A DNA stretch of 42,668 nucleotides from assembly GCA_023512255.1 (NCBI GenBank), contig JAILZY010000025.1, positions 1-42,668 of the forward strand. The letters are read 5' to 3'. Source of the stretch: a bacterium. Lineage in GTDB: Bacteria > SZUA-182 > DTGQ01. A model generated the notes under the pieces. It was not told where the DNA came from. It saw only the letters and a program-made list of their open reading frames with translations, and did no database searches. This document shows, in pieces, positions 6,939-29,804 of this stretch (its first letter is position 1; every line of letters begins with the position of its first letter). Both the position numbers and the translations under genes were made by a program.

Positions 6939-9900
6939 CTACTCTTTGCTTGGCTTAAGCGAGGTCGAGCTTCGAGGTGAGCTGGTCGGAGTACGAGGTG
7001 GAGGAAGCACTCGGTATATGTAGTCAGCACCGAAGAATTCAAGATCTATCCCATTATACTTGAACGAACCTGTCACTTCAAAATAATCGTCAACTGGAAA
7101 TTCAGTAACATCACCTCTTCTAAACCTGCAGATAGCCATATGCTCTGTCCAGTCTCGGTTAATCGAGCGGGCCGGTGCACCATCAGCCACAGCCCGGTAA
7201 ATAGTCAAAGCATCATACGGAGCAGGGAACTTGATGAAGGCGTCAAACGCGGTCCCATTCGGCAGCTTCTGAATCTCATCCTTAATCACGATCTGATCGC
7301 CAACCAGCCTGAGAACTACGTAAAATTTCACAGAATCTTTACTCGTATTTCCGCAATAATCCTTAGCTATTATAGTGATAACGTTGTGTCCAACCAGCTT
7401 TGATAGGTCGATCGGGATGCAAGAAGGAGCAGTAATATCAACCGGCGCACCGCCATTGTTGGACAGAAGGACAGTCACTTCAGGATTAGGATCGCAGTTG
7501 TCAGTTACAGTGTAGCAGAAGTCGAGCTTGTCTGTACTGAAGTACTTTGGCTTCAGCGGCGGATCTATAGTGATCTTGGGAGGTTCAACCTCACGGACAG
7601 TTATCCAGAAACTGCACTCAGCCTTATTCCCGCACTTATCTGTAGCCGTACAAGTAACTAAATATTTGCCCTCACATTTTCCTGGTGGAATGGGGAAGAA
7701 ATCACCCGGATTATAGTTACAAGTCACGGTCAGGTCGCCACAATTATCCTCAAAGATTGGCAAAGGCCAGGTTACTACCGCGCCGCATTGCCCAGGATCA
7801 TTATTGACTACAATATCATCAGGACATGGAGTCACTATCTTAGGAGGTTCTTCATCACGAACAGTTATCCAGAAACTGCACTTAGTCTCATTTCCGCATT
7901 TGTCTTTGCCGGTGTAGATAATCTGATACTTACCTTCACATTCTCCTGGTGGAAGGGGGAAGAAATCCCCTGGGGCTACACTATGAGGAGTTGAATCATC
8001 AGGGTAAACAGCGATAACCGTCACGGTGACATCATTACAATTATCAATAAAACGTGGCGGGTCCCATGATACATAGGCACCACACCGGCCATCTTTCTTG
8101 TCTTTTGCGGAAGTACTAATATCATCTACGCAATGACTTACCATGGGAGGTTCTTTATCCAAAACAATTACAAGACGGCTCCAAGAAGCTGGATTTCCTG
8201 ATGAATCTTTAGCAATGCAAGTGATCAGCGTGCCTTTGGCACTATCTTCACATTCTGCGGGTAAAGGTTTGCTCGGGTCAAAAGGCGTACCGTCAGGATA
8301 GGTACAAGTAACCTCTGTCACCTCGCAATTATCAGTAAATGCTGGTGGATCCCAAGGGACTATAGCACTACACTCTGTAGGATCATTAGGAACAATGATA
8401 GGTGGAAGAGGTAGAGGTGGTACCGGAGCCTCTGTGTCATTCACCGTTACCGTAGCTGTGCAGGTGCTCTGGTTGCCGCTGGTATCAGTTACGGTCAGGG
8501 TAACCTCATTGGGACCAATATTATCGCAGGTGAAGGTATCTGGGGAGACCTTCATTTCGGCAATGCCGCAGTTGTCCGTCGAGCCATCATCTACATCCGA
8601 GGGGGTAATAGAGACCTGGCCGCTGGCATCAAGCTGCACGGTGATGTCCTTGCACCTGGCCTCAGGAGGAATTAAATCCACCACCGTTACTGTAGGTAGG
8701 CAGATGCTAGGAGGATTGCCGCTGGTGTCAATGACGATAAAGGTAACCAGATTGCAACCAATATTATCGCAGGTGAAGGTATCGGGGTAGACCTCCATTT
8801 TGGCAATTCCGCAGTTGTCCGTCGAGCCATCATCTACATCCGAGGGGGTAATAGAGACCTGGCCGCTGGCATCTAGATACACGGTGATGTCCTTGCACCT
8901 GGCCTCAGGGGGAATTAAATCCACCACCGTTACTGTAGCTGGGCAGATGCTAGGAGGATTGCCGCTGGTGTCAATGACGATAAAGGTAACATCATTGGGA
9001 CCAATATTATCGCAGGTGAAGGTATCGGGGTAGACCTCCATTTTGGCAATTCCGCAGTTGTCCCATGAGCCATTATCTACATCCTGGGGGCTGATTCTAG
9101 CCTGGCCGCTGGCATCAAGCTGCACGGTGATGTCCTTGCACCTGGGCTCAGGGGGAATTGAATCCACCACCGTTACCTTAGCTGGGCAGGTGCTCTCATT
9201 GTCGCTGGTATCAGTTACGGTCAGGGTAACTGAAATCTCTTTGCCGGCATCATCGCAGGTGAAGGTATCTGGGAAGACCTCCATTTTGGCAATTCCGCAG
9301 TTGTCCCATGAGCCATTATCTACATCCTGGGGGCTGATTCTAGCCCGACCGCTGGCATCAAGTTTCACGGTGATATCTTTAGCTATGCACTGGGGCGGAA
9401 TTTTATCTTCTACCTTACTGCTCTTCTCGATGATACCATTCAACCATTTACTCTGGTCGTTAGAAGGTAGAATACTTACAGCAGCCTCGACCTTTATATC
9501 ATCACCATCTTTAGCAGGGGTGAGCAAATCACAGATAGCAACTATAGTACTATTTATATCTTGTCGACAAACCTCTTGATTATTAAGGTAAAATGTTAAC
9601 TGCGCTTTCTTACTACTTATATTATTCTCACATAAAACTTTAGCGATTAGGGAATTACAATCGCCTGTAACTTCGAGATCTACCCAGGCATTATAGGTGG
9701 ACTTTGTGCCTTTTTCGTTATTATAGGTAACGGTGACCTTAATTTTATCAACTCCTGAGTCCCCAGTCGTATACGCCCATTTAACCTTTCCATCATCATC
9801 AGTTGAAAGAAATCCAGAGGATTTATCCTGATTAGGGCCCTCAACAATTTCAATGAAAACCAATGCATCTTTTATTGGGGCAGAGCCTTTTTTAACTCTA

Positions 9901-10736
9901 CACTCAATATCAGCTTGGTTACCTACAGGAGTTACAAAATTTTGAGGGGAAAGGTAAATATCAAACGAAGATGTAGTTACGCTATTTGCCTTGATAAACA
10001 CAGCCGTATCGGCGGAATTAGCACCAATGCCGCCTATAACCAGCTTGAGATGGTTAACTGTCCCAGGGAAAACCTCGGCCTCACATTTTAAAACCTGACT
10101 AACCCCATTTGATCGGATATCAATTAAGCCACCATTTGGTGCATAATTAACCCCATTGACGAAGAAACCAAAAGCATTACTGCTCTCACGGCTAACAGAT
10201 ATTTTATTCGCTTTAGAGCTCACTACATATTCAAAGGTCAGAATACTGCCATCAGGCACAAAGTCAAATTCCAGCACAGCCGGCAGCTCGCTCGTCTTAG
10301 CTATGTCCTGGCCAGAGGCCCTGACTGTTCCAGGTCGAGCAGGTTTGCCCAGGCTAGCGATATCCATCGTGCTGAGGATGATGCCGCTTTCAAACCCTAC
10401 AATTTTCTCTCCACCGGTAAAGATACCGCCAGAATAAGGCGATCCGCTCCATTTGACATTAGAGATAGTGATTCCTTCTCCGGCGATAGTCTCTGCCAGG
10501 ATAGTTGGATCACCTATTGCTTCCATGTCCTTAGTCGCCAACTTGCTTAATTCTCCGGTGGCAGGAGACGGCGGGGAAATGGTAGTAATGACAGGCATGG
10601 TTTTGATTGGCCCTGGCTGACTGCTTGCTGCCATCACGGGCGTATGAATTCCTAACAGGAGTAGAACAAAAGCTCCTACCAGTATGCCCGAAATCCAATA
10701 TTTCTCCATCCTTTTCCATTGCTTCAATTGCTTCAT
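6939..10736 (-). CDS. Large secreted protein: choice-of-anchor L-like domain plus HYR/Ig-like modules
   Basis: A 1265-residue exported protein. Residues 1-36 are a signal peptide (core ISGILVGAFVLLLLGI, cut near VMA-AS). Residues about 70-235 resemble the choice-of-anchor L domain (GIILST, VLEFDFVPDGSILTFEYV, AFGFFVNG). About 265-355 is an invasin/Big1-like Ig fold (GNQADIECRV, DDDGKVKWAYTTGDSG). Residues 446-767 are four 81-residue modules with paired Cys (RCKDITV, DNCGIA, TFTCDN), three nearly identical at DNA level. About 767-1050 are three HYR-type domains (PWDPPAFTDNC, TGKDKCGNETKCSFW). Another Ig-like module follows, then a unique region of about 125 residues. No C-terminal membrane anchor or LPxTG/PEP motif is visible. 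AAGGAG lies 8 bases before the ATG. Probably a surface or matrix adhesin, possibly a type II secretion substrate (inference). Confidence 0.8.
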   Translation of the reverse strand: MKQLKQWKRMEKYWISGILVGAFVLLLLGIHTPVMAASSQPGPIKTMPVITTISPPSPATGELSKLATKDMEAIGDPTILAETIAGEGITISNVKWSGSPYSGGIFTGGEKIVGFESGIILSTMDIASLGKPARPGTVRASGQDIAKTSELPAVLEFDFVPDGSILTFEYVVSSKANKISVSRESSNAFGFFVNGVNYAPNGGLIDIRSNGVSQVLKCEAEVFPGTVNHLKLVIGGIGANSADTAVFIKANSVTTSSFDIYLSPQNFVTPVGNQADIECRVKKGSAPIKDALVFIEIVEGPNQDKSSGFLSTDDDGKVKWAYTTGDSGVDKIKVTVTYNNEKGTKSTYNAWVDLEVTGDCNSLIAKVLCENNISSKKAQLTFYLNNQEVCRQDINSTIVAICDLLTPAKDGDDIKVEAAVSILPSNDQSKWLNGIIEKSSKVEDKIPPQCIAKDITVKLDASGRARISPQDVDNGSWDNCGIAKMEVFPDTFTCDDAGKEISVTLTVTDTSDNESTCPAKVTVVDSIPPEPRCKDITVQLDASGQARISPQDVDNGSWDNCGIAKMEVYPDTFTCDNIGPNDVTFIVIDTSGNPPSICPATVTVVDLIPPEARCKDITVYLDASGQVSITPSDVDDGSTDNCGIAKMEVYPDTFTCDNIGCNLVTFIVIDTSGNPPSICLPTVTVVDLIPPEARCKDITVQLDASGQVSITPSDVDDGSTDNCGIAEMKVSPDTFTCDNIGPNEVTLTVTDTSGNQSTCTATVTVNDTEAPVPPLPLPPIIVPNDPTECSAIVPWDPPAFTDNCEVTEVTCTYPDGTPFDPSKPLPAECEDSAKGTLITCIAKDSSGNPASWSRLVIVLDKEPPMVSHCVDDISTSAKDKKDGRCGAYVSWDPPRFIDNCNDVTVTVIAVYPDDSTPHSVAPGDFFPLPPGECEGKYQIIYTGKDKCGNETKCSFWITVRDEEPPKIVTPCPDDIVVNNDPGQCGAVVTWPLPIFEDNCGDLTVTCNYNPGDFFPIPPGKCEGKYLVTCTATDKCGNKAECSFWITVREVEPPKITIDPPLKPKYFSTDKLDFCYTVTDNCDPNPEVTVLLSNNGGAPVDITAPSCIPIDLSKLVGHNVITIIAKDYCGNTSKDSVKFYVVLRLVGDQIVIKDEIQKLPNGTAFDAFIKFPAPYDALTIYRAVADGAPARSINRDWTEHMAICRFRRGDVTEFPVDDYFEVTGSFKYNGIDLEFFGADYIYRVLPPPRTPTSSPRSSTSLKPSKE
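8437..9401 (-). repeat. Four tandem ~243-base coding modules
   Basis: The DNA encoding residues 446-767 of the HYR protein is four tandem modules. The segment at 8771-8820 recurs almost exactly at 9014-9063, a shift of 243 bases (81 codons), and a slightly more divergent copy lies near 8528-8577. Near-identity at synonymous sites points to recent duplication or gene conversion, so copy number may vary. Confidence 0.85.
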
Positions 10737-12768: not shown

Positions 12769-13551
12769 ATGGGACATGGCATTCATTTTCTCAGTTATGG
12801 TGAGTCGATTTTCTGGACCCTGCTTATCAGTGGGATATTAATTGTATTTTCAAAACTGGCTCTGAGCCAAAAAAATCTGGGCGTACCAGAAGGGCTTCAG
12901 AATCTAGCCGAGGGCTTGGTTGAATTTATGCTCGGCATGTTTGAGCCAGAGTTGGGCAAGAAGGTAATGCCTCTTGTCCTGCCTTTTCTCGGTGCATTTT
13001 TTCTCTTCATTCTGATCTCAAATATCTTTCTCCTCATCCCATTCGCTCAATGCCCAACCGGCGATTTAAGCACCACAGCCGCACTTGCGGTCATCTCGCT
13101 TGCTGGAGTGCATATTCTCAGTATTAAACTGAAGGGCTTCAAAAAATACGTATATGATTGGTTTAACCCCTATCCAGAGTTAACCGCAAAAGCCGAGGGT
13201 GAGGAAGAAGGAAAAGTAGGCCCGCTTAAATCTATCTTTAAGAAAATCAGTGGCTTTCTGTACTCTGGAATGATGAGAATTATTGTCTCTCTGCTGATTA
13301 TCCTCCACGTCATGGATAATTGCGCCCGGCTCTTATCTCTTTCTTTTCGACTTTTCGGTAATATCTTCGGAGAGCATACGGTATATGCCATGGTTTCACA
13401 GGTAGCCATGGGCAGTTATCGAATGGTAATTCCCCTGTTCATCCCGTTGTTAATTCTCTTATTGGATGTTTTAGCGGCTACTATTCAAACAGCCGTATTT
13501 TGCATGTTGAGCACTTTTTACCTAAAAGAGGAAGCTGCGATTCACCATTAA
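12769..13551 (+). CDS. atpB: F-type ATP synthase subunit a
   Basis: A 260-residue integral membrane subunit that forms the ion half-channels of the F0 motor next to the c ring. The conserved segment ARLLSLSFRLFGNIFGEHTV contains the essential Arg of the family (Arg194 here, equivalent to E. coli aR210) inside FRLFGN. Several hydrophobic segments are visible, with a charged insert around residues 140-155 (AKAEGEEEGKVGP). AGGAGG lies just before the ATG. It is first in the operon a-c-b-alpha-gamma-beta-epsilon. No atpI/uncI gene precedes it. Length is normal for the family. Confidence 0.95.
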   Translation: MGHGIHFLSYGESIFWTLLISGILIVFSKLALSQKNLGVPEGLQNLAEGLVEFMLGMFEPELGKKVMPLVLPFLGAFFLFILISNIFLLIPFAQCPTGDLSTTAALAVISLAGVHILSIKLKGFKKYVYDWFNPYPELTAKAEGEEEGKVGPLKSIFKKISGFLYSGMMRIIVSLLIILHVMDNCARLLSLSFRLFGNIFGEHTVYAMVSQVAMGSYRMVIPLFIPLLILLLDVLAATIQTAVFCMLSTFYLKEEAAIHH

Positions 13552-13605: not shown

Positions 13606-13860
13606 ATGGATAGCATGATTGTGCTGAAAATGGTTACCACCTTTAGTGCTGTAGTTGCTATTGCTATTGGAGCCCTGGGAGCTGCTATCGGTATGTCAAA
13701 AATCGGAATGGCCGCTCTGGAAGGTATTGCCAGACAACCAGAGATGGCTGGAAGAACCTTTACCACCATGCTGATCGCTATGGCTCTGATTGAAGCCTTG
13801 GCTATCTATTGTTTGCTGATCTCCTTGGTCCTTATCTTCGGTAATCCGTTCATACATTAA
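13606..13860 (+). CDS. atpE: F-type ATP synthase subunit c (proton-type)
   Basis: An 84-residue two-helix protein that builds the rotor ring. The polar loop is ARQPE (residues 42-46) and the ion-binding carboxylate is Glu63 in ALIEALAIY. Aligned on the RQP loop with the Ilyobacter tartaricus c subunit, the sodium-ligand Gln32 is Met30 here, and Ser66 and Thr67 are Ala64 and Leu65. The set of sodium ligands is therefore missing, which predicts proton coupling. The glycine-rich helix-1 motif is degenerate (GALGAAIGMSKIG), which may affect ring size. GGAGGT is 9 bases before the ATG. Confidence 0.95.
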   Translation: MDSMIVLKMVTTFSAVVAIAIGALGAAIGMSKIGMAALEGIARQPEMAGRTFTTMLIAMALIEALAIYCLLISLVLIFGNPFIH

Positions 13861-13918: not shown

Positions 13919-14419
13919 ATGCTAGGGTTCAGTTTTGTTAAATTTCTCTTTAGCATAGTAAACTTTGTCGTGCTCATGGTCATCCTCAAAAAACTCTTCT
14001 TTAAGCCAATCATGAATGTCCTAGAGGAGAGGAAGGCTAAGGTAGCGGCTGAGCTGGCCAAGGCGGATGAAGCAAGAGCAGAAGTGGCCAAATTGAAAGA
14101 GAGCGGAGAGAAGATCATTCTGACAGCCAGACAAGAAGGAGAGTTGATTCTCAAAAAGGCTCGAGAGAATGCGGATCAGGTGATTGCTCAGGCTAAGGCT
14201 GAGGCAAATAATATTGTTCAGGAAGCCAAAGCCAGCATTGAGCGCGAAAAAGAGGAAATCCGCCGAGAGATGTATTCTGTATTGATCGATTTAGTCTCCT
14301 TAGCTTCCAGAAAAGTCATGTATGGATCAATTCATGAGGATTATCAGAAAGCATTAATCGAAAGTGCTGTTGGGCAGAGCCTTAAGCAGGCATATCTGCG
14401 AGGAGGAATGGCTAATTAA
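13919..14419 (+). CDS. atpF: F-type ATP synthase subunit b
   Basis: A 166-residue peripheral-stalk protein: one N-terminal membrane helix (residues about 5-28, [20 protein letters not shown]) followed by [15 protein letters not shown] and a long charged helix to near the end. Length is typical of a homodimeric b. Only one b-type gene is present, so a b2 dimer is expected. The usual atpH (delta) gene does not follow. Instead a 122-base gap leads to atpA, whose N-terminus looks delta-like, so the tip of this b would have to contact a domain of alpha (inference). Confidence 0.93.
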
Positions 14420-14442
14420 CTTTTAATTTCCGAGTAACCGAT

Positions 14443-14519
14443 CCCTGGATCACAGGATGGCCATTATTAGGGGCAGAGGCGGCGATGGTTACGGGGAACC
14501 GCCCCCTGGATCACAGGAT
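14443..14519. repeat. 16-base direct repeat around the atpA start
   Basis: CCCTGGATCACAGGAT occurs at 14443-14458 and 14504-14519. The second copy would be inside the coding region if atpA began at 14485, but both copies are untranslated if it begins at 14542. This favours the downstream start. Confidence 0.85.
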
Positions 14520-14541
14520 CGTCAAGGAAGGCTTCAAGGTT

Positions 14542-16365
14542 ATGAAAGATATTTTACAGCAGGATTTGAAAGAGGTTCTCTCTGAATGTAAATTACCGCT
14601 GGTCCTCCTCACCTCTGTTCCTCTCAATAATAATTTTGTCAGCAACCTGGAACAAAAGCTGTCTGAAATTGCGGACCGGAAAATCGAAATTCGGGTTTTT
14701 GAGGATTCGAAGCAGGAAGGAAGCGTTCTTTTCCTCACCGAAGACTTGAAAATCAACCTGGACATCCGTCATTCCTTTGCTGATTCGCTTGAGGAAAAGC
14801 TTCGGATGTTGCGGGAGGGTATTGATGTTGCCAAGGTCCAGGATGTAACCAGTCAGATCAGGCAGATTATTGAGAGCACAGAGCCGACGTTCAAAGTGGA
14901 TGATATCGGCCGCGAGGGGGTGGTTCTGGAGGTTGGAGATGGAATCGCTCGGGTTTCGGGGTTAGGAAAGGTCGGCTACAACGAGGTTGTCCAGTTTGAA
15001 AACGGCGGCTATGGCCTAGCCTTCAACCTGGAACGCAACAGTGTAGGTTGTATTTTGCTCACCCCCGAAGAGGAAATCCCTGAGGGGAGCCGAGTGGTCA
15101 GCACCGGCAAACTAATGCAGGTCCCAGTTGGCGATGGGATGATCGGACGAATCGTCAATGCTGTGGCCGTGCCTATTGATGGTAAGGGAAGGATTGAGTC
15201 CAATAAGTTTCGGCTGATTGAGCGCAAAGCTCCTGGAGTTATGCTTAGAAAATCGGTCTGCGAGCCGGTTCAGACCGGAATTAAAGCCATTGACGCTCTG
15301 GTCCCGATTGGGCGAGGCCAGCGCGAGTTGATTATTGGTGATCGAAAAATCGGCAAGACCGCTCTGGCCGTAGATACGATTATCAATCAGAAAAACTCTG
15401 ATCTAATCTGCATCTATTGTGCTATCGGACAAAAGGCAGCCGCGGTAGCCAAGGTGGTCCATGTCCTCCAGAAAGAAGGAGCCTTGAAGCACACGATTAT
15501 TGTGGCTGCTCTGTCGAATGAGCAGACTGCCTTCCGCTTCCTGGCTCCCTACACTGCCTGTGCCATTGGCGAGGAATTTATGGAGCAGGGCAGGCATGCC
15601 TTAGTCATCTACGATGATCTTTCAAAGCACGCCATGTCATATCGAGAAATGTCAGCTCTGCTCAAGCGGCCAATAGGACGTGAGGCTTATCCGGGAGATA
15701 TTTTCTATATTCACTCTCGACTCCTTGAGAGAGCAGCCAAACTGCGTGATGATTTGGGAGGAGGGTCACTAACCGCCCTCCCCATTATTGAAACCCTGGG
15801 TGGAGATGTAACTTCGTATATCTCAACCAATGTCATTTCGATTACTGATGGACAGATCTACCTCCAGAGCGAATTGTTCAATACCGGGTTTCGCCCGGCA
15901 ATCAATGTGGGGCTTTCGGTCTCCCGTGTCGGTGGTGCAGCCCAGCTCAAGGCTATGAAGCGGGTAGCTGGCCGAATGAGGGTGGATTTGTCCCAGTACC
16001 ACGAGATGGCCGCGTTCGTAAAATTCGGGGCCGAACTTGATGAGGCAACCAAGGCCCAGCTAGCCCGTGGTGAGCGTGGACGGGAGCTTCTTAAGCAGGT
16101 TCAGTATGCACCGATGCCGGTAGAGGAGCAGATCGCCATCATTTACGCGGTAGTCAATGGTTTTCTGGATGACATTCCGGTCAAGATGATGAGTGAGTTT
16201 GAAAAGGGGTTTATCACCCATATCCGTCAGAATGTTCCTGAAATATTCTCTAAGATACTTGAGCTAAAGGATATTAATCAGGAGATTGAAGGCTTGTTGA
16301 AAAAGGCGATCACGGATTTCAAGGGTATTTTTATGGCGGGTGAAAAGCCTCTCCAGGCAAAGTAG
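14542..16365 (+). CDS. atpA: F-type ATP synthase subunit alpha with N-terminal delta-like domain
   Basis: A 607-residue protein (626 if the ATG at 14485 is used). Residues about 95-600 are a normal alpha subunit: first helix near [12 protein letters not shown], beta-barrel, P-loop GDRKIGKT at 266-273 and [17 protein letters not shown] with the family's Arg-finger region nearby. The P-loop is displaced by 97 residues compared with E. coli alpha (169-176). The extra N-terminus, residues about 14-85, has the layout of the C-terminal domain of subunit delta: LVLLTSVPL, then a helix, then [19 protein letters not shown], then a [10 protein letters not shown] helix. There is no atpH gene in the operon. 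I read this as a delta(CTD)-alpha fusion that would tie the stalk directly to alpha. The alpha call is certain; the delta reading is from pattern only. Confidence 0.9.
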
Positions 16366-16399: not shown

Positions 16400-17329
16400 A
16401 TGTCACAAAAGCTGATTGAGTTACGGCATCATATCCAAAGCGTTGAGAATATTAAGGCAACAACGCAAACGATGTCTACTGTTGCGGCCGCAAAGCTAGC
16501 CCGATCTCGAAACAAGGCTGCCTCGCTGCGGACCTATGCAGAAAAAATGAGAGAAATCGTTCAGGTTCAATCCTACTATATCGCTGAAATGAGCGATCGG
16601 GCGGCAGAGATTTCCCCCCTGTTCCAATCAAAGCCGGGTGAGGGGAAAACGGTTTTTGTGGTCATCGGCTCTGATATCGGCATGTGTGGAAGCTATAACG
16701 GACAGATTGGCCGACTAGCTCTAAGCAGAATAGAAGAATTGCAGGCTGAGGGGCAAGTGTGCGCTGTTTATTGCAAGGGTATCAAAAGCGAGGAGTTCTT
16801 TAGGCGGAAGACGAAAATTCCTATTATCGGCATGGAGAAATGGTCAGAGGAGGGAGTATCGATCAATGACGCCATTAACCTGCTGAGAACCATGGTCAAG
16901 CTCTTCAACCAGGAAGACATTAAGGAAATCTACTGTGCTTATACGAAATTCTATAGCCCGGTAAAACGCGAGCCTACTATTCTAAAAATGCTTCCGCTGA
17001 GCTTTGATATCCTGCCTGCTGGCAAATTTCAGGTCTTTGAGGATTGGATTTACGAGCCGGATGCCATTACCATTCTGAAAGAGCTCATTCCCACCTATTT
17101 CCGGGTTCAAGTCTTTGATATGCTGCTTGAGTCTTATGCCAGTGAGCAGGGAGCTAGGATGATGGCTATGGAAGAGGCTTCTGATCGAGCTGAGGAGACC
17201 TTGCGGGAGCTGCGAGTCGCCTACAACAAGATGAGGCGCGATTTAATCACTCTGGATCTTTTGGGCATCCTGAGTGCGGCTAATGTGATCGAAATGGAGG
17301 CGGCCAAAAAAGCCGGCGGCTTGCTATAA
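16400..17329 (+). CDS. atpG: F-type ATP synthase subunit gamma
   Basis: A 309-residue central-shaft subunit. The N-terminal helix (LRHHIQSVENIKATTQTMSTVAAAKLARS) and the C-terminal helix (YNKMRRDLITLDLLGILSAANVIE) match the coiled coil that turns inside alpha3beta3. A Rossmann-like middle region carries SDIGMCGSYNGQIG, the family's GLCGGLN-type site. Sequence is divergent from common gammas (THR/ASP for the usual ITQEI at the C-terminus). It sits between alpha and beta as in standard operons. Confidence 0.94.
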   Translation: MSQKLIELRHHIQSVENIKATTQTMSTVAAAKLARSRNKAASLRTYAEKMREIVQVQSYYIAEMSDRAAEISPLFQSKPGEGKTVFVVIGSDIGMCGSYNGQIGRLALSRIEELQAEGQVCAVYCKGIKSEEFFRRKTKIPIIGMEKWSEEGVSINDAINLLRTMVKLFNQEDIKEIYCAYTKFYSPVKREPTILKMLPLSFDILPAGKFQVFEDWIYEPDAITILKELIPTYFRVQVFDMLLESYASEQGARMMAMEEASDRAEETLRELRVAYNKMRRDLITLDLLGILSAANVIEMEAAKKAGGLL

Positions 17330-17351: not shown

Positions 17352-19372
<2,021 letters not shown>

Positions 19373-21150: not shown

Positions 21151-21774
21151 TTAATGTGATCGGATAATATCCTTTATTTTCATAAGGCGTGAATTGTTAG
21201 AGCGCTCGATCTCGTCAAGTTTAAGCCGGATAAATCTTACCGTCTCTTCAAGCTGCGGGATAAGGAAATATTCGAGAGCATTAACCCGTCTTCTGATCTT
21301 TCCGATTTCCTGAGCCATAAGCCTGACCGTTGCCTCAAGCTCAGCTAACTTCAAAATTTCGGGAAAAATTTCCCTCAATGAACCAAGAGCATAATCAAGC
21401 TCAAGTGGAGTATTCATTAGCCCGTAAGAGAAGGCGTCAACCTGCCCCTCAATGGTTAATTGGGGAATCAAGACATTCATAACGCTTTTCTGCGACAGGC
21501 GAATGAGCAGCTCCCCTTTAGGATAATTCAAGGCATCTTCAATGACCTCCTCTGACAGTGCACTCGCCTTGGCCAAAAGAAAGGTCTTCAATATCCTGGG
21601 CAGAAGATCGTCAACCATGATCCTCTGCTTTCGGTAAGCCTCGACCAGGGAGCTGAATTCCTTTATCAATCCTTCCAACTTATCCTTAAGAAGGTGATGA
21701 CCGCGCCTTGCAAAATCAAGTCTTTTCCGAAGGCGCAGTAAAACCATTCGGTTTGGATTCACATTGAGTCTCAT
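21151..21774 (-). CDS. ntpD: V/A-type ATPase subunit D
   Basis: A 207-residue central-shaft subunit. The family signature NVNPNRMVLLRLRKRLDFARRGHHLL opens the protein, and two long helices (residues about 5-75 and 110-200) would form the rotor coiled coil. The segment RLMAQEIGKIRRRVNALEYFLIPQL is strongly conserved in the family. It is the last V-type gene, 8 bases after subunit B, as in Enterococcus and Thermus operons. Confidence 0.95.
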   Translation of the reverse strand: MRLNVNPNRMVLLRLRKRLDFARRGHHLLKDKLEGLIKEFSSLVEAYRKQRIMVDDLLPRILKTFLLAKASALSEEVIEDALNYPKGELLIRLSQKSVMNVLIPQLTIEGQVDAFSYGLMNTPLELDYALGSLREIFPEILKLAELEATVRLMAQEIGKIRRRVNALEYFLIPQLEETVRFIRLKLDEIERSNNSRLMKIKDIIRSH

Positions 21775-21782
21775 GGTTTAAG

Positions 21783-23183
21783 CTACTCCGCCGCTACTCC
21801 AGCCTCTTGAAGGAGAGGTTTCAAAAATTCTTCTTTATAGGCATCCCGCACTCTCTTTAATTCAGCCATTGGTAGTCTGCTCAGCAGTCGCCAGCCAAGA
21901 TCCAGGGTCTGCTCAATGCTCCTGTTTTCATCCTCTCCCTGCCGAACAAAGACATCCTCAAAGGCATCGGCAAATTCTACAAACTTCAAATCAATCGGCG
22001 TCAGGGCCGATTCACCGAGAATAACGGCCAGCTCCTGAGCCTCCTTGCCTCGGGCATAGGCGGCAAACAACTGATTCAATAAATCCGAATGATCCTTCCT
22101 AGTCTTCCCCTGGCCAATACCCTTATCTTTTAATCTCGACAGCGAGGGCCGCACATCTACCGGCGGATAAATCCCTTTGCGGTGCAGCTCACGAGAGAGA
22201 AAGATCTGCCCCTCGGTAATATATCCGGTAAGATCAGGGATAGGATGGGTTTTATCATCTTCCGGCATAGTCAGAATAGGGATCTGGGTTATGGACCCCT
22301 TTTTCCCCTTGATCCTGCCTGCCCGCTCATAGATAGTGGCTAAATCCGTATATAAATATCCTGGGTATCCACGCCTGCCCGGGATCTCTTTGCGGGCAGC
22401 CGAGACCTCTCTCAGCGCTTCACAGTAGTTAGTCATATCGCTTAGAATTACCAGCACATGCATATCCAAATCAAAGGCCAGATATTCAGCACAGGTCAGG
22501 GCGCTCCTCGGAAGAGCGATTCTTTCAATTACCGGGTCATTAGCCAGGTTAATAAACAAGACCGTCTTATTGATAGCTCCAGTTCGTTTAAAATCAGCGA
22601 TAAAAAATTCCGCCTCTTCAAAGGTGATCCCCATAGCCGCAAAGACAACGGCAAACTTTTCACCCTCTTTGAGTACCCTTGCCTGCCGGGCGATCTGAGC
22701 CGCAAATTGCGGATGGGGCAAGCCAGTGCCGGAGAATATCGGCAGTTTTTGCCCCCTGACCAGGGTATTCATGCCGTCAATGGTTGAGAATCCTGTCTGA
22801 ATGAACTCATTGGGATAATCGCGAGCATAAGGGTTAATCGGACTTCCGTTAATGTCTAATTTCTTTTCAGGAATAATTTCTGGTTTTCCATCTTTCGGGT
22901 GGCCGAAAGCATCAAACACCCGGCCCAGGATATCAGGAGAGACAGGAAACTCGATGCCGTGGCCGAGAAATTTGACCCTGCATTCCTCAGGGTTCATACT
23001 GTCCGCGCCTTCAAAGACCTGAACCAAAACCTTATTTTGATGGGCCTCAAGCACCCGACCACGCCTAGTTTCCTGGCTTGGCAGCCGTATCTGTACCAGC
23101 TCACCGAATTTGACACTCTCGACTTCCTCAACCAACATCAGCGGTCCAAAGATCTGGGAGATCGTCTTATACTCTCTGCTCAA
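21783..23183 (-). CDS. ntpB: V/A-type ATPase subunit B
   Basis: A 466-residue non-catalytic nucleotide-site subunit. Typical segments: [38 protein letters not shown] (in place of a P-loop, as is normal for V-type B) and [13 protein letters not shown]-like [27 protein letters not shown]. The start codon is TTG: AAGGAG lies 7 bases upstream, and the TTGA overlaps the stop of subunit A, implying translational coupling. Length is normal. Confidence 0.95.
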
Positions 23184-24955
23184 GAGATAACTCCTTCCTT
23201 TTTTTCTTCAAGCTCTTCAAACTGCTGTTTCATTTCAATCTCTATATCCTCAAACTTAAATAATGACCTCTCGTCAATATACTTAGCCCTGGCAATCTGC
23301 TCTCTGATGGGCAGTTGGGCAATCTTCTCGAAAGCCACATTGTTCTTGATCGCCCTAGCCGCGTATTTACCAAATAGCAAGATCAGGTTCAAGATCTTAA
23401 ATTGCTTGGGATATGAGGTATAGGTATCCTCTTCCATAAAGGCATTTTGATGGAGAAAATCCTCTCTGATGGACTTGGCTACCTCCATAGTCAATTTATC
23501 TTCAGGGGAGAGAGCATCAAAACCAACCAGCCTGACGATTTCGATCAACTCGGATTCTTTTTGCAGAATCCTCATAGCTTCAATTCGATTTGATTTCCAT
23601 TTTGGATCAATCTCTCTGCCCGCGGCCAGATCAACCTCTTCATTATACAACGAGTAGCTCTTTAGCCAGTCAATGGCCGGAAAGTGTCTTCGTGAGGCAA
23701 TGGCGTCATCAAGCCCCCAGAATACCTTGGCTACCCGAAGCGTGGCTTGGACAACAGGCTCTGACAAATCTCCCCCCGGCGGTGAGACAGCACCGATAAT
23801 GCTTAAAGTAGCTGACTGATCATTTTGTCCTAGACACTTTACTCTCCCTGCCCGCTCGTAGAAGCTAGCGATTCTTGAGCTCAGGTAAGCCGGATATCCC
23901 TCCTCACCAGGCATCTCCTCAAGCCGTCCTGACATCTCTCGCATAGCCTCAGCCCACCGCGAGGTAGAGTCAGCCATAAGAGCTACATGGTAGCCCATAT
24001 CGCGGAAATACTCAGCAATGGTAATGCCGGTAAATACCGAGGCTTCCCGGGCCGCTACTGGCATATTCGAGGTATTGGCTATTAAAACCGTTCTATTCAT
24101 TAAAGAGTCGCCTGTTCTTGGATCTTTTAGCTCTGGAAATTCGATCAGAACATCGGTCATCTCGTTACCGCGCTCTCCACAACCGACAAAAATGATGATA
24201 TCAGCATCGCACCACTTGGCTAGCTGGTGCTGAACAACAGTCTTGCCGCTTCCAAACGGCCCAGGCACACAGGCAGTGCCGCCTTTGCAGAGGGGAAATA
24301 GCATATCGATTATCCTCTGCCCGGTTACCATAGGCTCTACTGGGGGAAGCTTCTGCTTTACCGGCCTTGGTTTTCTCACCGGCCACCGCTGGAGCAGATT
24401 TAACCTTTTATCACCCTCTTTGGTAGTCAGAAGGCAAACGGTCTCTTCAACCCTGAATTCTCCACTCTTAATCTCTTTTATTATCCCTTCTAGACCAAAG
24501 GGAACCATGATCTTATGTTTGACCGTTTTGGTTTCTTGAACAAATCCGATCTGATCTCCGGCCACTACCCGGTCTCCCTTTTTGACCGTCGGCTCAAAGT
24601 GCCATTTTTTATCACGAGGTATAGCCGGGCTTTCAATTCCCCTAACAATGTAGTCGCCATACTGAGACCTCAGGGCATCCAAGGGCCTTTGCACTCCATC
24701 AAAAATAGATCCTATAAGCCCTGGCCCAAGCTCAACACTAAGAGGTTCGTTCACAAGATAAACAGGGTCCCCTGGTCCGATACCGTCGGTTTCCTCATAG
24801 ACCTGAATGGAGTATAATTTTTCCCGAATTTCGATAATTTCTCCGAGCAGCTTTTTCTCACTAACCCTGGCAATCTCAAACATTCTGGCCCCCTCCAAGC
24901 CTTCGGCTACAACCAGCGGGCCAGCAACCTTAATTATTCTCCCTACTCCTCCCAT
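23180..24955 (-). CDS. ntpA: V/A-type ATPase catalytic subunit A
   Basis: A 591-residue catalytic subunit. P-loop GPFGSGKT is at residues 232-239, followed by [15 protein letters not shown] with the catalytic Glu. The non-homologous bulge typical of V/A-type A subunits is present around residues 110-190. [31 protein letters not shown] is conserved. AAGGAG is 10 bases before the ATG. It overlaps subunit F upstream by 13 bases and B downstream by 4. Confidence 0.97.
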
Positions 24956-25284
24956 GAATGGTTATCTCCTTTTGAGATCAAGTCAATTCCTACCGCCCGT
25001 TCAATGAGTTTTTTCATTTCACTAAGACTGGTATTCTGGCTCCCCTTATGGCCCGGGATAATTAAAATAATATTTAAAGCTCTTTGACTCAAACGGCTTA
25101 TTTCATCCGCTATGCTCATGGCTATGGATTCGGTGATCAAAATGATTCCATATGAGCTATCAAAAGCAAGCTCTCTCAGTTTAATCAGAGCTTCTTCAGG
25201 TTTAGTAACCGGAAAAACTTCCGCTCCCATACCTTTGAAACACAGGAGAACATCTTTTTCTCCGATGGTGGCAACTTTAGACAT
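24943..25284 (-). CDS. ntpG: V/A-type ATPase subunit F
   Basis: A 113-residue subunit F (named NtpG in Enterococcus hirae, AtpF in Thermus), which binds the D shaft. The start VATIGEKDVLLCFKGMGAEVF and the central YGIILITESIAMSI are characteristic. It overlaps subunit C by 8 bases and A by 13. The short C-terminal tail runs past the usual end. Confidence 0.9.
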   Translation of the reverse strand: MSKVATIGEKDVLLCFKGMGAEVFPVTKPEEALIKLRELAFDSSYGIILITESIAMSIADEISRLSQRALNIILIIPGHKGSQNTSLSEMKKLIERAVGIDLISKGDNHSWEE

Positions 25285-26320
25285 ACCCTTGTCTCACCTT
25301 GGCCCTGATCACATCCTCTGTCAAGTGATTAAGCTTGGCGATGATAATGATCTTGAGATTTAAGATTTCTATCCAAAAAGCCGCCGTATAGGCAAAGGCG
25401 ACCTCTATCCCAAATGGAATATATTTTGCTCTCCTAAGAATATCCATCAAAAAATCATCGCTTCTTTTTTCAAGCCCTGAAGCCGAGGCCGAAACAGCCC
25501 CTTTTCGATAAGGCGCTGCCGCATCCTCCTCAAGAAAAATATCCTGATATCCGAACTCAGACAGCATGGCCGGCCAAATATTGGCAGGCGCCTCATAGAG
25601 CTTGTTTATAACCTCTAGGGTCAAGGCAGATTGGGGAGGAATAAAAAGAACCTCAGAAATCAGGCTGGCAGGAGCCCCAAGAGCCTTAAGCCGCCAGAGC
25701 GCGGCCAGGTTTTTCAATTCCAAAAAAGCTTGAGTGTATCTGCGGATCAGGTCATTCGATGAGGCCTCGGCCATCTTATAGACAATGGCCAACATCTTGC
25801 GGTCTGCCTCAAAATCAACAACCTGCAATGACTTTTTCTCCCTCCAGGCCCGGATTATCTGCCGATAGGCCTCAAGGTATTCTTGGATAATTTCACCCTG
25901 CTCAGAGCAGAGGCTATCTCTGTGCTCTTTCTCTAGTTCTAACTCGCTTGGCTCTTCTGCCTCCTGTTGCGGAAGTTTGCTAAGATAAGACTTTATCCTA
26001 GACTTAAGATGCTGAATATCCCCTCTTACCTTGAAATAATCAGCCACCAGAGGCTGGGGAGAGTATTTCCTAATCCAGGTGAGCTTGGCTGCCAGCTGAC
26101 TATTTAGGATCCTCTCATAGTCAAAGAGGTCCTCCTCCTGACGAAAAGCAGATTTGTAGGCAGAATCAGACAAAAATCGCAGCAGCTCCTTGGGGTCTTT
26201 GGCCAGGATGAGGGTCTGATACTGATTGCGGGAAATGAGCTCTTTCTCCAAGGCCTTGATTCGGCCTGAGAGATAGGTCCATTTTGTTCCTTCTTGAGCC
26301 TTTTGAGCTAAGGATATCAT
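25277..26320 (-). CDS. ntpC: V/A-type ATPase subunit C (AC39 family)
   Basis: A 347-residue, mostly helical protein of the archaeal/vacuolar C (d) family, which joins the central shaft to the K ring. Conserved features include YLSGRIKALEKELISRNQYQTLILAKDPKE at the start and the GIEVAFAYTAAFWIEILNLKIIIIAKLNHL stretch near the end. The gene lies between E and F in the standard order. The Shine-Dalgarno is weak. Confidence 0.93.
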   Translation of the reverse strand: MISLAQKAQEGTKWTYLSGRIKALEKELISRNQYQTLILAKDPKELLRFLSDSAYKSAFRQEEDLFDYERILNSQLAAKLTWIRKYSPQPLVADYFKVRGDIQHLKSRIKSYLSKLPQQEAEEPSELELEKEHRDSLCSEQGEIIQEYLEAYRQIIRAWREKKSLQVVDFEADRKMLAIVYKMAEASSNDLIRRYTQAFLELKNLAALWRLKALGAPASLISEVLFIPPQSALTLEVINKLYEAPANIWPAMLSEFGYQDIFLEEDAAAPYRKGAVSASASGLEKRSDDFLMDILRRAKYIPFGIEVAFAYTAAFWIEILNLKIIIIAKLNHLTEDVIRAKVRQGYV

Positions 26321-26368
26321 AGGGTTGAACCTGATTTGTTTGCTTGGCTTTTTTTGAAAAATAACAGC

Positions 26369-26953
26369 TTAAAACAGCACTCGGGAGATTGCGGGCGTTA
26401 ATTCCTCTTTTTTATCAGCTATGATCTGCCGGAGAGAGCAATCTATTTCCGCCTTTTCTCCCCGAAGAATAAAACCACCCTCGATCTCAGGAGAGGTTAC
26501 AATTTTTATCTTGAGGTCATTTTTCTGCATCTTTTTTAGCATGCTCTCAATCCACTGCCGGCTGATCCTCTGCTGATCTCTTTGGCTGATAATCAGGGTA
26601 TCCACCCCAGGGCAGAGATTTTTCGAAAGGTAGTGAGCAATAATCTCGAGGTATTTTTTATCCTCAAGCTTCAATATCCTTTCAATTGCCCGATCAAATA
26701 CCTCATCAATCAACTGATTCTTCAACCGGAGCACCTCAGCGCTTGTAGTGGCCCGGTATTCGCTAATAATCCGCTCTTCCTCAAGAGCCAAGGTCTTTTT
26801 TTCATTTTCTATTTCCTCTTCAAATCGCGCCTTGGCAATTTTTTCCGCCTCCTGCCGCAACGCAGCAGCCCTTTCCTCAGCTTCCTTGATGATCCGGCCT
26901 GCCTCACCTTCTGCCTCTTCTAATATCTTTTGTCGTATCTTCTCAAGGCTCAC
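26369..26953 (-). CDS. ntpE: V/A-type ATPase subunit E
   Basis: A 194-residue peripheral-stalk subunit. The N-terminal half (residues 1-75) is a charged helix (KIRQKILEEAEGEAGRIIKEAEERAAAL). The C-terminal half is a mixed globular domain with EIEGGFILRGEKAEIDCSLR, conserved in the family. The start codon is GTG, with AAGGAAA 6 bases upstream. About 100 bases of AT-rich DNA separate it from subunit K. Confidence 0.93.
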   Translation of the reverse strand: MSLEKIRQKILEEAEGEAGRIIKEAEERAAALRQEAEKIAKARFEEEIENEKKTLALEEERIISEYRATTSAEVLRLKNQLIDEVFDRAIERILKLEDKKYLEIIAHYLSKNLCPGVDTLIISQRDQQRISRQWIESMLKKMQKNDLKIKIVTSPEIEGGFILRGEKAEIDCSLRQIIADKKEELTPAISRVLF

Positions 26954-26974
26954 GGTTTGTTTCCTTGTATTTTT

Positions 26975-27053
26975 ATGTTCTTCTATTATTAGAATATTAG
27001 AATATTATAATATTGTTAATTATTATATTAAGATTATGTCTAATGGCATTATG
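26975..27053 (-). other. AT-rich gap between subunits K and E
   Basis: A run of imperfect AATATT palindromes (26988-27030). In an operon whose other downstream genes overlap or nearly touch, this gap could hold a processing or attenuation site that lets the rotor subunit K be made in excess. That role is inference. Confidence 0.35.
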
Positions 27054-27569
27054 TTAAAATTTTGTCCCCGTAACCCAGATCAATAACAAGATATTGGCCA
27101 GAAGAGCTACTACGGCATAAGTTTCGACCAGGGCTGGAATAAGAATGGCTTTCCCTGCCTCAGTCGGCTGTTTGGCGACCATATTAGTGGCTACAGCCGA
27201 GGCCTTTCCCTGATAGATGGCGCTCATCAATTCTACAATCCCAGTGCCAAGGCCTAAAAAGAAGATCACTAGCCCCTGGGTAGGTGAGATGGTTATCTGT
27301 CCGGCTATCAATCCACTGCGCAAGGCAGCCATAATCGCGCAGATAAATCCATAAAATCCCTGGGTCCCTGGCAAGGCCATGATAACCAACAATTGCCCAA
27401 ATAATTCTGGTTTCTCAGACAGCACTCCCCCAGCCTGACTGCCAGCGATCAGAATGCCTCTAGCCGAACCTAAACCACCCAAGGCGAAAACCAACACTGC
27501 CCCCATAGCTGCCAAACCAGCTCCTGTCTGAACAAAATAAAAATTCAGCATCTGTTGCCATGCACTCAT
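27054..27569 (-). CDS. ntpK: V-type ATPase subunit K (rotor), sodium-site type
   Basis: A 171-residue duplicated rotor subunit with four membrane helices (two hairpins). The residues that bind sodium in Enterococcus hirae NtpK (Leu61, Thr64, Gln65, Gln110, Glu139) are all present at matching places: Leu66, Thr69 and Gln70 in ALPGTQGFYGF, Gln120 in AIYQGKA and Glu149 in PALVETYAVV. The first hairpin has no carboxylate, as in NtpK. This predicts a sodium-coupled enzyme. GGGAGG lies 11 bases before the ATG. It is flanked by gaps of 100 and 156 bases, unlike its neighbours. Confidence 0.95.
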   Translation of the reverse strand: MSAWQQMLNFYFVQTGAGLAAMGAVLVFALGGLGSARGILIAGSQAGGVLSEKPELFGQLLVIMALPGTQGFYGFICAIMAALRSGLIAGQITISPTQGLVIFFLGLGTGIVELMSAIYQGKASAVATNMVAKQPTEAGKAILIPALVETYAVVALLANILLLIWVTGTKF

Positions 27570-27725
27570 CTTTTTTTCATCCTCCCTTTAACCCAAATTA
27601 GAGATTGTTAAGATCGTTATAACCTCAAGGTATTGACAAGTATTGAATTTTAAAGCTGGTTAATTAATTGAATAGCGAGCGATAAACTCTATTTTTTAGG
27701 GTAAATTCAACTTGTTACCGTAAGT

Positions 27726-29804
27726 TCAAGATTCCTCAGAGCAAAGCTTTGGACAATAACAACCTTCACATGAAGAAGCATTAGCGGTTTCGATAATCTC
27801 TAAGGCGTTATATTCATTAGAAAAGGCTCGAAAGGGAGTTCCGCCGCTATCATAGAACCTTCCGAAAAACTCCAGAAGGGTTAGTCTAGCCGGATGGATA
27901 AAGGCTCCAAGAACATTCATGATAAAATTGAACACATGGCCTAAGATGAGAATAGCCGCGATCATACATGGCCAGACCACAGGAATTTTAAATAAAAAGG
28001 CGATAATATTGAAAGCCATGCCGACAATGGTAGTGGTCAATCCAAGGGCCAAAAGCCGGGAGTAGGAGAGGCAATCTCCAACAAATCCGGCTAAACCATA
28101 GCTGCCCACAATACCATACAAACTGGCTACTCCGGTCAAAAATTTGGCTAGCAGCAGCTCCTCACCCCGCCCCTGAGTCAAGACCAGACCAGATGCCCCA
28201 CCGATGAAAAGGACAAGCCCTATTTTATAAAGCAGGGGATTCACCACGGTAAAAAGCGAAGAAATAAGAATTATAGCCCCGCCAAGATAGGGATACCAGA
28301 GGAAGCCATCAAATATGGCATTTTTGATATTCCTTTGCCGAATTTCCTTGACTATTTTTAGAAAAATACCGTAGAACTGGTTCAGGACGCCGATAAAAAT
28401 AGCTACCACCAGGGCAATAAGCGGCTTTTCCATCGGATCTAGAATCACCAAGCTATTCCTTAGGATAAGAAGAGGATTAGAGGGAGAAAGATATTTGGCT
28501 GAGACTAGGTCCCCAGCCCAAGCTCCGGTTATCAGGCCGAAAAAGGTAGTTGAGATGCCTGCATATAAGAAAAGCCGTAAGAATCTAACCAGTCGTTTCT
28601 CAGCTTTATATTTCCTCATCAGAAAGGCGCAAAGGCTGACCAGCATAATTCCATATAGGACATCCCCAAGGCAGATGCCAAAAAAAGCCAGAAAGGTCCA
28701 AAAGATAAAGGGGGTGGGATCAAGGGAAAAATAGCTTGGATAGCCAAACATCTCAACCAGGAGCTCAACTGGCTTAAAAATCCAATTATTTTTTAACCTG
28801 ACCGGAACATTATCCGAGGCTTCAGGTGGAGAAAGGGTGCAGCTTATATCTTGACTAAACCGAGCCTCTAGCTCCCTAGCTAATCCTTCAGCTTCTTGAG
28901 CTGAGACAAAGCCTTCCAGCATCACCGTATGCGGTGTTTGTAAAAAATTCTTCTGGACCTCATGAAAAGATTTTTTATTCTTATACTCTTCCAGTAAAAT
29001 CTTGATGTATACCTTATACCTGAGAAATTCTCCAATCTGGCCAAGGATCTTTTCCTTTTCCCCTTTTAGCCTTACTAACTCTTCCCGCAATTGCTGGCAT
29101 CTGCCGCCTATGGTAGTAGTTAGCGGCGGAAGTAGTGCCGGAAGAAAATGACAAGCAGCGAGAAGGTCATTGATCTGCTCTTTTATCTCCTTTAGCCCAA
29201 TAATTAGAATCAAACGCCAAGATTTATCCTCTGAGAGAATTTCAAGGTGCAGATCATCAAGATATTGTTCTGCCTGGCTTAAAAATATTTCATAATCACG
29301 AGGGGGTATTTTCCCCAGCAAGGCGAATGTCTTTTTGCTCTCTTTGATCAGAGCAGGCGGGAAGGAGAGGCCAGCATACGGCTCAAGCTCTGCTAGCTCA
29401 TGGGCAATATCACCTTCTCTTTTATTTATCTCCTCAAAACGCTGGTCAAGAGCCCTAATTTGCTGATGTAATTCCTCAATCTCAAGTCTACGTGCTTCCT
29501 CAACCTCCGATCGAGTGGCAAAAGTGGTCAAGGTAGTGGTGAACAGAGAGACAAAGCCTTTCTTCTCAGGGAAGAATTTATTAAAAAAATCGATCATCGA
29601 GTTCAATTGAACGATTCTCTTATTAAATTCAGTAGTATCAACCGTGATAAGGTATTTTTCATAGCCGCTGTTTTCTTCAAGCCTCAGACATGGCCTTAAG
29701 TCGACGATATGCAAGACGCCTTTTCCCATTAAGAAAGAACGAAGCTCTTCTTCCCTGCTCTTTAAGCATATCATGGATACTTTAGTCATCTTCTCGATAG
29801 CCAT
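27726..29804 (-). CDS. ntpI: V-type ATPase subunit I (a-type membrane subunit)
   Basis: A 692-residue protein. Residues 1-330 are the cytoplasmic stalk-binding half with long helices (residues about 95-140 and 225-290). Residues about 355-665 carry the membrane half. The essential Arg is Arg583 in LSYSRLLALGL. FWTFLAFFGICLGDVLYGI and LLEFFGRFYDSGGTPF are family hallmarks. Unusual: the protein ends in a Cys cluster CEGCYCPKLC (C-x2-C-x-C-x3-C), which I do not know from other I subunits and which could bind metal or form disulfides. Confidence 0.95.
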   Translation of the reverse strand: MAIEKMTKVSMICLKSREEELRSFLMGKGVLHIVDLRPCLRLEENSGYEKYLITVDTTEFNKRIVQLNSMIDFFNKFFPEKKGFVSLFTTTLTTFATRSEVEEARRLEIEELHQQIRALDQRFEEINKREGDIAHELAELEPYAGLSFPPALIKESKKTFALLGKIPPRDYEIFLSQAEQYLDDLHLEILSEDKSWRLILIIGLKEIKEQINDLLAACHFLPALLPPLTTTIGGRCQQLREELVRLKGEKEKILGQIGEFLRYKVYIKILLEEYKNKKSFHEVQKNFLQTPHTVMLEGFVSAQEAEGLARELEARFSQDISCTLSPPEASDNVPVRLKNNWIFKPVELLVEMFGYPSYFSLDPTPFIFWTFLAFFGICLGDVLYGIMLVSLCAFLMRKYKAEKRLVRFLRLFLYAGISTTFFGLITGAWAGDLVSAKYLSPSNPLLILRNSLVILDPMEKPLIALVVAIFIGVLNQFYGIFLKIVKEIRQRNIKNAIFDGFLWYPYLGGAIILISSLFTVVNPLLYKIGLVLFIGGASGLVLTQGRGEELLLAKFLTGVASLYGIVGSYGLAGFVGDCLSYSRLLALGLTTTIVGMAFNIIAFLFKIPVVWPCMIAAILILGHVFNFIMNVLGAFIHPARLTLLEFFGRFYDSGGTPFRAFSNEYNALEIIETANASSCEGCYCPKLCSEES

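Follow-up and report, generated by a model that had tools for sequence, protein, structure and literature searches.

A natural fusion of a diverged delta C-terminal-like domain to ATP synthase alpha in an uncultured bacterial lineage that also encodes a canonical F-ATPase

An F-type operon with an extended alpha gene

The whole stretch of DNA (42,668 nt; hereafter the window) contains, according to its open reading frames and their profile matches, an F-type ATP synthase operon with the gene order a-c-b-alpha-gamma-beta-epsilon, the features of which are as follows.

12769..13551, + strand: atpB, a subunit, 260 aa (PF00119 E=4.9e-41 in two stretches; TIGR01131 115 bits, cut-off 102.6)
13606..13860, + strand: atpE, c subunit, 84 aa (PF00137 E=1.4e-16; TIGR01260 61 bits, cut-off 43.95)
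13919..14419, + strand: atpF, b subunit, 166 aa (PF00430 E=2.6e-18; TIGR01144 83 bits, cut-off 65.5)
14524..14531, + strand: Shine-Dalgarno-like AAGGAAGG ahead of the alpha start (comparison of upstream sequences)
14542..14826, + strand: delta C-terminal-domain-like N-terminal extension of alpha, residues 1-95 (conservation, profile-profile comparison, delta C-terminal domains of the same genome and of Acetoanaerobium, AlphaFold2, Foldseek, dN/dS)
14827..16365, + strand: alpha subunit proper, in frame behind the delta-like domain (TIGR00962 732.9 bits, cut-off 484.45; match from base 14833)
16400..17329, + strand: atpG, gamma subunit (PF00231 E=1.6e-67; TIGR01146 214 bits, cut-off 194)
17397..18896, + strand: atpD, beta subunit (TIGR01039 721.9 bits, cut-off 462.85)
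18893..19372, + strand: atpC, epsilon subunit (PF02823 E=1.5e-16)

The alpha, beta, gamma, a, b and c subunits all scored above the NCBIfam equivalog cut-offs, with the catalytic motifs intact, and epsilon fell slightly under its own (63.4 bits against 67.25). The a subunit has the conserved Arg motif LSLSFRLFGN, with a linker insert of approximately 25 residues ahead of the Arg helix; the ion-binding Glu of c lies within IEALAIYC, which we take to be a motif of the H+ and not the Na+ type; alpha proper carries the P-loop GDRKIGKT; and the catalytic motifs GGAGVGKT and GERTREG of beta are intact. The b subunit is of normal length and its C-terminus is without a delta domain, no PF00213 match being found in a Pfam search of this protein. 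Open reading frames and the Pfam OSCP model gave no atpH gene between b and alpha or elsewhere in the F operon of the window, as had been stated in the initial annotation, which had also supposed that the N-terminal domain (NTD) of delta was gone; the gap between b and alpha is 122 bases and has no OSCP match. A delta pseudogene or NTD remnant was rejected as an explanation of this gap, which is short and shows no such similarity. Between b and alpha there is also an imperfect direct repeat (36 nt, 81%; 14428-14463 and 14489-14524) that is not evident upstream of alpha in the related genome G001. An Rfam scan of the window gave no match. Elsewhere in the window, the - strand at 6939-10736 encodes a secreted-type protein of 1,265 aa with repeated HYR-like units.

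The alpha reading frame is open without stops from 14485 to 16365. The ATG at 14542 is likely to be its start, because it encodes the first residue common to all five relatives and in each of them lies just behind a AAGGAAGG-type ribosome site; this site lies approximately 10 bases 5' of the start in five of five genomes and is the same or nearly the same in sequence in the four relatives of the window. The match to the atpA model begins at base 14833, leaving approximately 95 residues ahead of an ordinary alpha, close to the 97 originally estimated. In a family profile search the extension frame was found in all five genomes of one order (G000-G004), so that relatives do share it, and the same profile gave nothing beyond weak matches (E 0.003-0.01) in the other genomes searched. 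For two genome pairs, the extension gave a dN/dS of approximately 0.057, compared with 0.02-0.04 for the remainder of alpha. By these measures of its sequence, the extension is a protein domain under strong purifying selection and no accident of reading frame. An assembly error or slip was ruled out, because the same stop-free frame is present in five separate genomes.

Relationship of the extension to the delta C-terminal domain

The initial annotation had described the extension as resembling the C-terminal domain (CTD) of delta and had proposed a search with the Pfam OSCP profile (PF00213). This search gave no match for any of the five extensions, not even when values up to E<=10 were allowed. 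Nor was a link to delta found when the extension alone was compared with Pfam, NCBIfam and PDB sequences by single-sequence and HMMER profile searches, or when a profile of the five extensions was run against the PDB. Comparison of profiles with profiles, shuffle tests and fold searches, on the other hand, did support the resemblance. Using HHalign, the five-member extension family was aligned with 31 delta proteins, taken from other genomes and from the same genome, and landed on the delta CTD (p=0.0022); the profile-profile score of 24.3 compares with 12.0 +/- 2.0 for column shuffles, none of 400 being as high. When the window extension was aligned with the delta CTD of its own genome the score was 53, a value reached by 0 of 1,000 shuffles. 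In this pairwise test the extensions of the window and G001 were significant, whereas those of the three more distant relatives were not. The score of the extension with the delta CTD of Acetoanaerobium was reached by 6 of 2,000 shuffles, and a tblastn alignment of the window protein with Acetoanaerobium continued colinearly from alpha back past the stop codon that ends the delta gene and into its CTD. The impression from tblastn that Acetoanaerobium itself has a fusion was rejected, delta and alpha being separate genes there.

AlphaFold2, with the five sequences of the family as its sole input and no delta sequence, predicted the order helix-strand-helix-strand-strand-strand-helix followed by the alpha N-terminal helix, which matches the delta-CTD order read earlier from the sequence; the pLDDT was low for both the window protein (62) and a second member (67). 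For both models the top PDB match in Foldseek was 9JC1, an engineered fusion of an NTD-less delta to alpha (deltaDeltaN-alpha), with weak E-values of 0.011 and 0.024, and the lists also contained several delta/OSCP chains lower down, together with IspF and AhpF folds. A profile of the natural fusions had 9JC1 as its top PDB match, at 4e-29 and across the joint, whereas ordinary alphas were matched only from about the start of alpha. In addition, the extension occupies the exact position of atpH in ordinary operons. Since the fold E-values are weak and other folds are listed, the case for a delta CTD is built on the agreement of independent tests together with this position. On that basis the extension is very probably a diverged homologue of the delta CTD, an inference that we regard as strongly supported. 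A delta-CTD-like part and alpha thus occupy one open frame (14542-16365), and both the NTD and a delta gene of the operon's own are absent.

The second F-ATPase, related operons and other natural fusions

The same genome encodes, on contig C77, a complete canonical F-ATPase operon with a full-length atpH (OSCP E=2.7e-33) and its own adjoining alpha. The reported lack of atpH therefore holds for the operon in the window and not for the genome. A normal atpH elsewhere had been named at the outset as evidence that would count against a fusion; such a gene does exist, but it has an alpha of its own beside it. Each of the order's five genomes has both the fused and the canonical alpha, together with a full-length delta match. 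The alpha tree has two clades supported at 100/100 each, one made up of the fused alphas and one of the canonical alphas from the same genomes; the canonical clade is nested in a well-supported group of ordinary alphas that excludes the fused ones. Because the two kinds of alpha separate on this tree, the fused operon did not arise by recent copying of the canonical operon. Beside the F operon, the - strand of the window at 21151-29804 carries V/A-type ATPase genes (V_ATPase_I, an AC39/C subunit, a V-type B-like protein and others), so that with the two F-type operons there are three rotary ATPases in the genome.

The fused operons of the relatives differ in several subunits. In G002-G004, which represent sister genera of the window's, the order is a-b-c-alpha, against a-c-b-alpha in the window, and the a subunit is 425-426 aa long (L071 5911-7191, L072 5254-6531, L073 187-1467). 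It contains an insert of approximately 175 residues whose first part is a degenerate version of the Arg helix and which aligns with the N-terminal half of the same protein (scores 71, 89 and 117 against shuffle means of approximately 33, with 0 of 500 shuffles as high in each case). The a subunit is of normal length in the window and in G001 (approximately 256 aa in the latter), with a short linker at the site of the insert, and no match to the long form was found at E<=1e-45 in the other genomes of a set of 386. We speculate that the duplicated a subunit bears on the anchoring of extra stalks. The epsilon subunits of G002 and G003 (302-308 aa; L071 12687-13613, L072 12091-12999) have a Pro/Met-rich repeat insert of approximately 140 residues in the beta-sandwich domain, and the c subunits of G002-G004 (118-132 aa in total; L071 7789-8145, L072 7174-7533, L073 2123-2521) have a signal-like N-terminal extension. 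In G001, two NADH:quinone/Mrp-type antiporter subunits (PF00361; L070 3033-6536) lie directly 5' of the fused operon; they are absent from that position in the window.

A fusion profile (A2) was run over a spread sample of 386 genomes; as alignment A2 includes full-delta fusions, this survey is not independent proof for the window. For the natural REARRANGEMENTS, uninterrupted delta-alpha frames were found in the five genomes of the order, G099, G054/G330 and G160 only, and most of the other top A2 matches span a stop between adjacent, separate delta and alpha genes. G160, whose genus is unrelated to that of the window, has a second deltaDeltaN-alpha fusion (L096 6072-7805), in which the delta CTD is recognized by Pfam (OSCP positions 105-172, E=2.7e-11). 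The genome is 97% complete, and neither an F-type alpha other than this fusion nor another OSCP match above the cut-off was found in it; loss of the delta NTD is therefore tolerated in nature. The same fusion occurs, at a contig edge, in a relative of G160 (G386, L102), and among 17 genomes of the phylum examined it is confined to this genus. In G099 (L063 3862-5964), G054 (L064 6730-8775) and G330 (L097 2506-4554) a full-length delta and alpha form one chain of 681-700 aa, which would place three delta NTDs on each F1 unless some were cleaved. A long alpha frame in G294 was rejected as a fusion, having no delta match. A single origin of all fusions was likewise rejected: the alpha of G099 sits among ordinary alphas, so that there were at least two origins; given the long branches of the alpha tree, the fusions of the window, G160 and G054 may or may not share one.

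The delta CTD has also been transferred to the C-terminus of b, as in G032 (L066 6103-7137), G044 (L068 4647-5381) and the N-ATPase of Picosynechococcus PCC 7002 (L110 976-1728), and this may be the reason why N-ATPases lack a delta gene. As far as these sequences go, delta has repeatedly lost its NTD while its CTD was transferred to b or alpha. G064 has a stand-alone delta of 118 aa between b and alpha, the OSCP match of which is limited to the CTD half (positions 89-169; L067 5479-5835).

Stalk number and comparison with known systems

Before 2025 each ATP synthase was thought to have one a subunit, with H+/ATP set by the size of the c ring alone. In that year Ueno et al. engineered a Bacillus PS3 FoF1 that lacks the delta NTD and has the delta CTD fused to alpha (PMC12229609; structures PDB 9JC1/9JC2), which abolished the limit of one a subunit. 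As many as three b dimers and three a subunits were accommodated by the engineered enzyme, its c10 ring accepting three a, and about half of the cryo-EM particles had a single stalk; the one-stalk limit was reasoned to be caused by the delta NTD, which lies on the F1 threefold axis (PMC12229609). Natural fusions of the same type were also named, in Acidaminococcus fermentans and under UniProt G4Q3K6 and A0A1I2C5T3 (PMC12229609), and our search of the literature for delta-alpha fusions gave no other report. The remark in the initial annotation that no delta-alpha fusion had been described is thus out of date, and its deduction that three delta-like domains would serve one b dimer need not follow: because three docking domains can hold three b dimers in the engineered enzyme, this apparent oddity has an experimentally grounded answer. 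The architecture is of the kind just described; new here is an uncultured lineage with a diverged natural example beside a canonical F-ATPase.

Starting from what can be read in the sequences (the fusion, the lost NTD, conservation, selection and a second, canonical operon), the explanation that we favour is that the window operon encodes a natural deltaDeltaN-alpha enzyme, the second F-type ATP synthase of its genome. The six-helix delta NTD, which sits on the F1 threefold axis and permits one peripheral stalk only, has been lost, and the alpha N-terminus very probably carries the part of delta that holds the b dimer, its CTD; three b-docking domains per F1 would then make a separate delta dispensable. 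That the fusion replaces delta as the stator link we consider probable, even though the canonical delta of the same genome, which counts against it, could act in trans. By analogy with the engineered PS3 enzyme, two or three b2 stalks might assemble, each with its own a subunit, and we give such a multi-stalk natural enzyme an even chance. Extra a subunits would raise H+/ATP and could allow ATP synthesis at low proton-motive force, a role that we suggest tentatively by the same analogy, with the fused enzyme working alongside the canonical single-stalk F-ATPase. It is conceivable, although we think it unlikely, that a two- or three-stalk enzyme is the low-gear (high H+/ATP) partner of the single-stalk one and that the duplicated, Arg-less half of a in G002-G004 anchors extra stalks without an extra proton channel, in which case the number of stalks could be adjusted independently of H+/ATP.

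The fusion might instead replace delta in an enzyme that still assembles one b2 stalk with a single a subunit, so that two of its three delta-like domains are unused or cap F1. The operon has one copy each of atpB and atpF, which points this way, as do the single-stalk particles of the engineered enzyme (PMC12229609) and the rule of one stalk in nature, and we regard this as a real possibility that falls short of being probable: the delta NTD held responsible for the one-stalk limit is absent, a c10 ring did take three a (PMC12229609), and three free identical docking sites should be hard to leave empty. Improbable, in our opinion, is an extension unrelated to delta, with the canonical delta of the second operon serving both enzymes in trans. 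The colinear alignment with the delta CTD, the profile-profile and pairwise shuffle results, 9JC1 as top match in the fold search and the exact atpH position all argue against it, as does G160, with the same layout, a delta CTD recognizable to Pfam and no other delta; they outweigh the missing HMMER/Pfam OSCP match, the normal delta in the genome and the retention of the alpha N-terminal helix, the would-be binder of the delta NTD. More improbable still is a decaying duplicate in which deletion of the 5' part of atpH produced the fusion by accident. The second, canonical F-ATPase, which means that the fused alpha is not the sole copy, would fit such decay, but the low dN/dS in both extension and alpha, the intact subunits and catalytic motifs, and the occurrence throughout the order of an alpha that forms its own fully supported clade do not.

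With natural fusions under selection beside an ordinary F-ATPase, whether evolution changes gear through stalk number becomes testable, anaerobes at low proton-motive force being one setting for such a change. To the engineered enzyme this study adds an uncultured lineage, relatives whose a subunit carries a duplication, and a separate genus (G160) in which no F-type alpha but the fused one was found.

Compared with known systems, the window operon resembles the engineered PS3 fusion in its missing NTD, the CTD on the alpha N-terminus and the lack of a separate delta, and differs in being natural, beyond recognition by Pfam, from an uncultured lineage and accompanied by a canonical F-ATPase. 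With the canonical F-type ATP synthase (a c b delta alpha gamma beta epsilon) it shares the remaining subunits and the gene order, but it has no separate delta and carries the delta CTD on alpha. The N-ATPases and alternate F1F0 enzymes (TIGR03324 and relatives) likewise lack a separate delta gene; membership of this group was rejected, as alpha scored 606.5 bits against 750.5 for TIGR03324, the gene order is not of the N type, and b is an ordinary 166-aa protein, whereas in N-type operons, such as those of G032 and PCC 7002, the delta CTD is on the b C-terminus. Mycobacteria, in which the full delta is joined to b, also have a stator subunit joined to delta, and b-delta chains such as 7y5b_d appear in the Foldseek list; the window, however, has the CTD only, carried on alpha. 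Finally, the full fusions of G099, G054 and G330 place delta ahead of alpha in a single stop-free chain, as in the window, but retain the delta NTD (OSCP positions 9-172), so that three NTDs would compete for one site on the axis.
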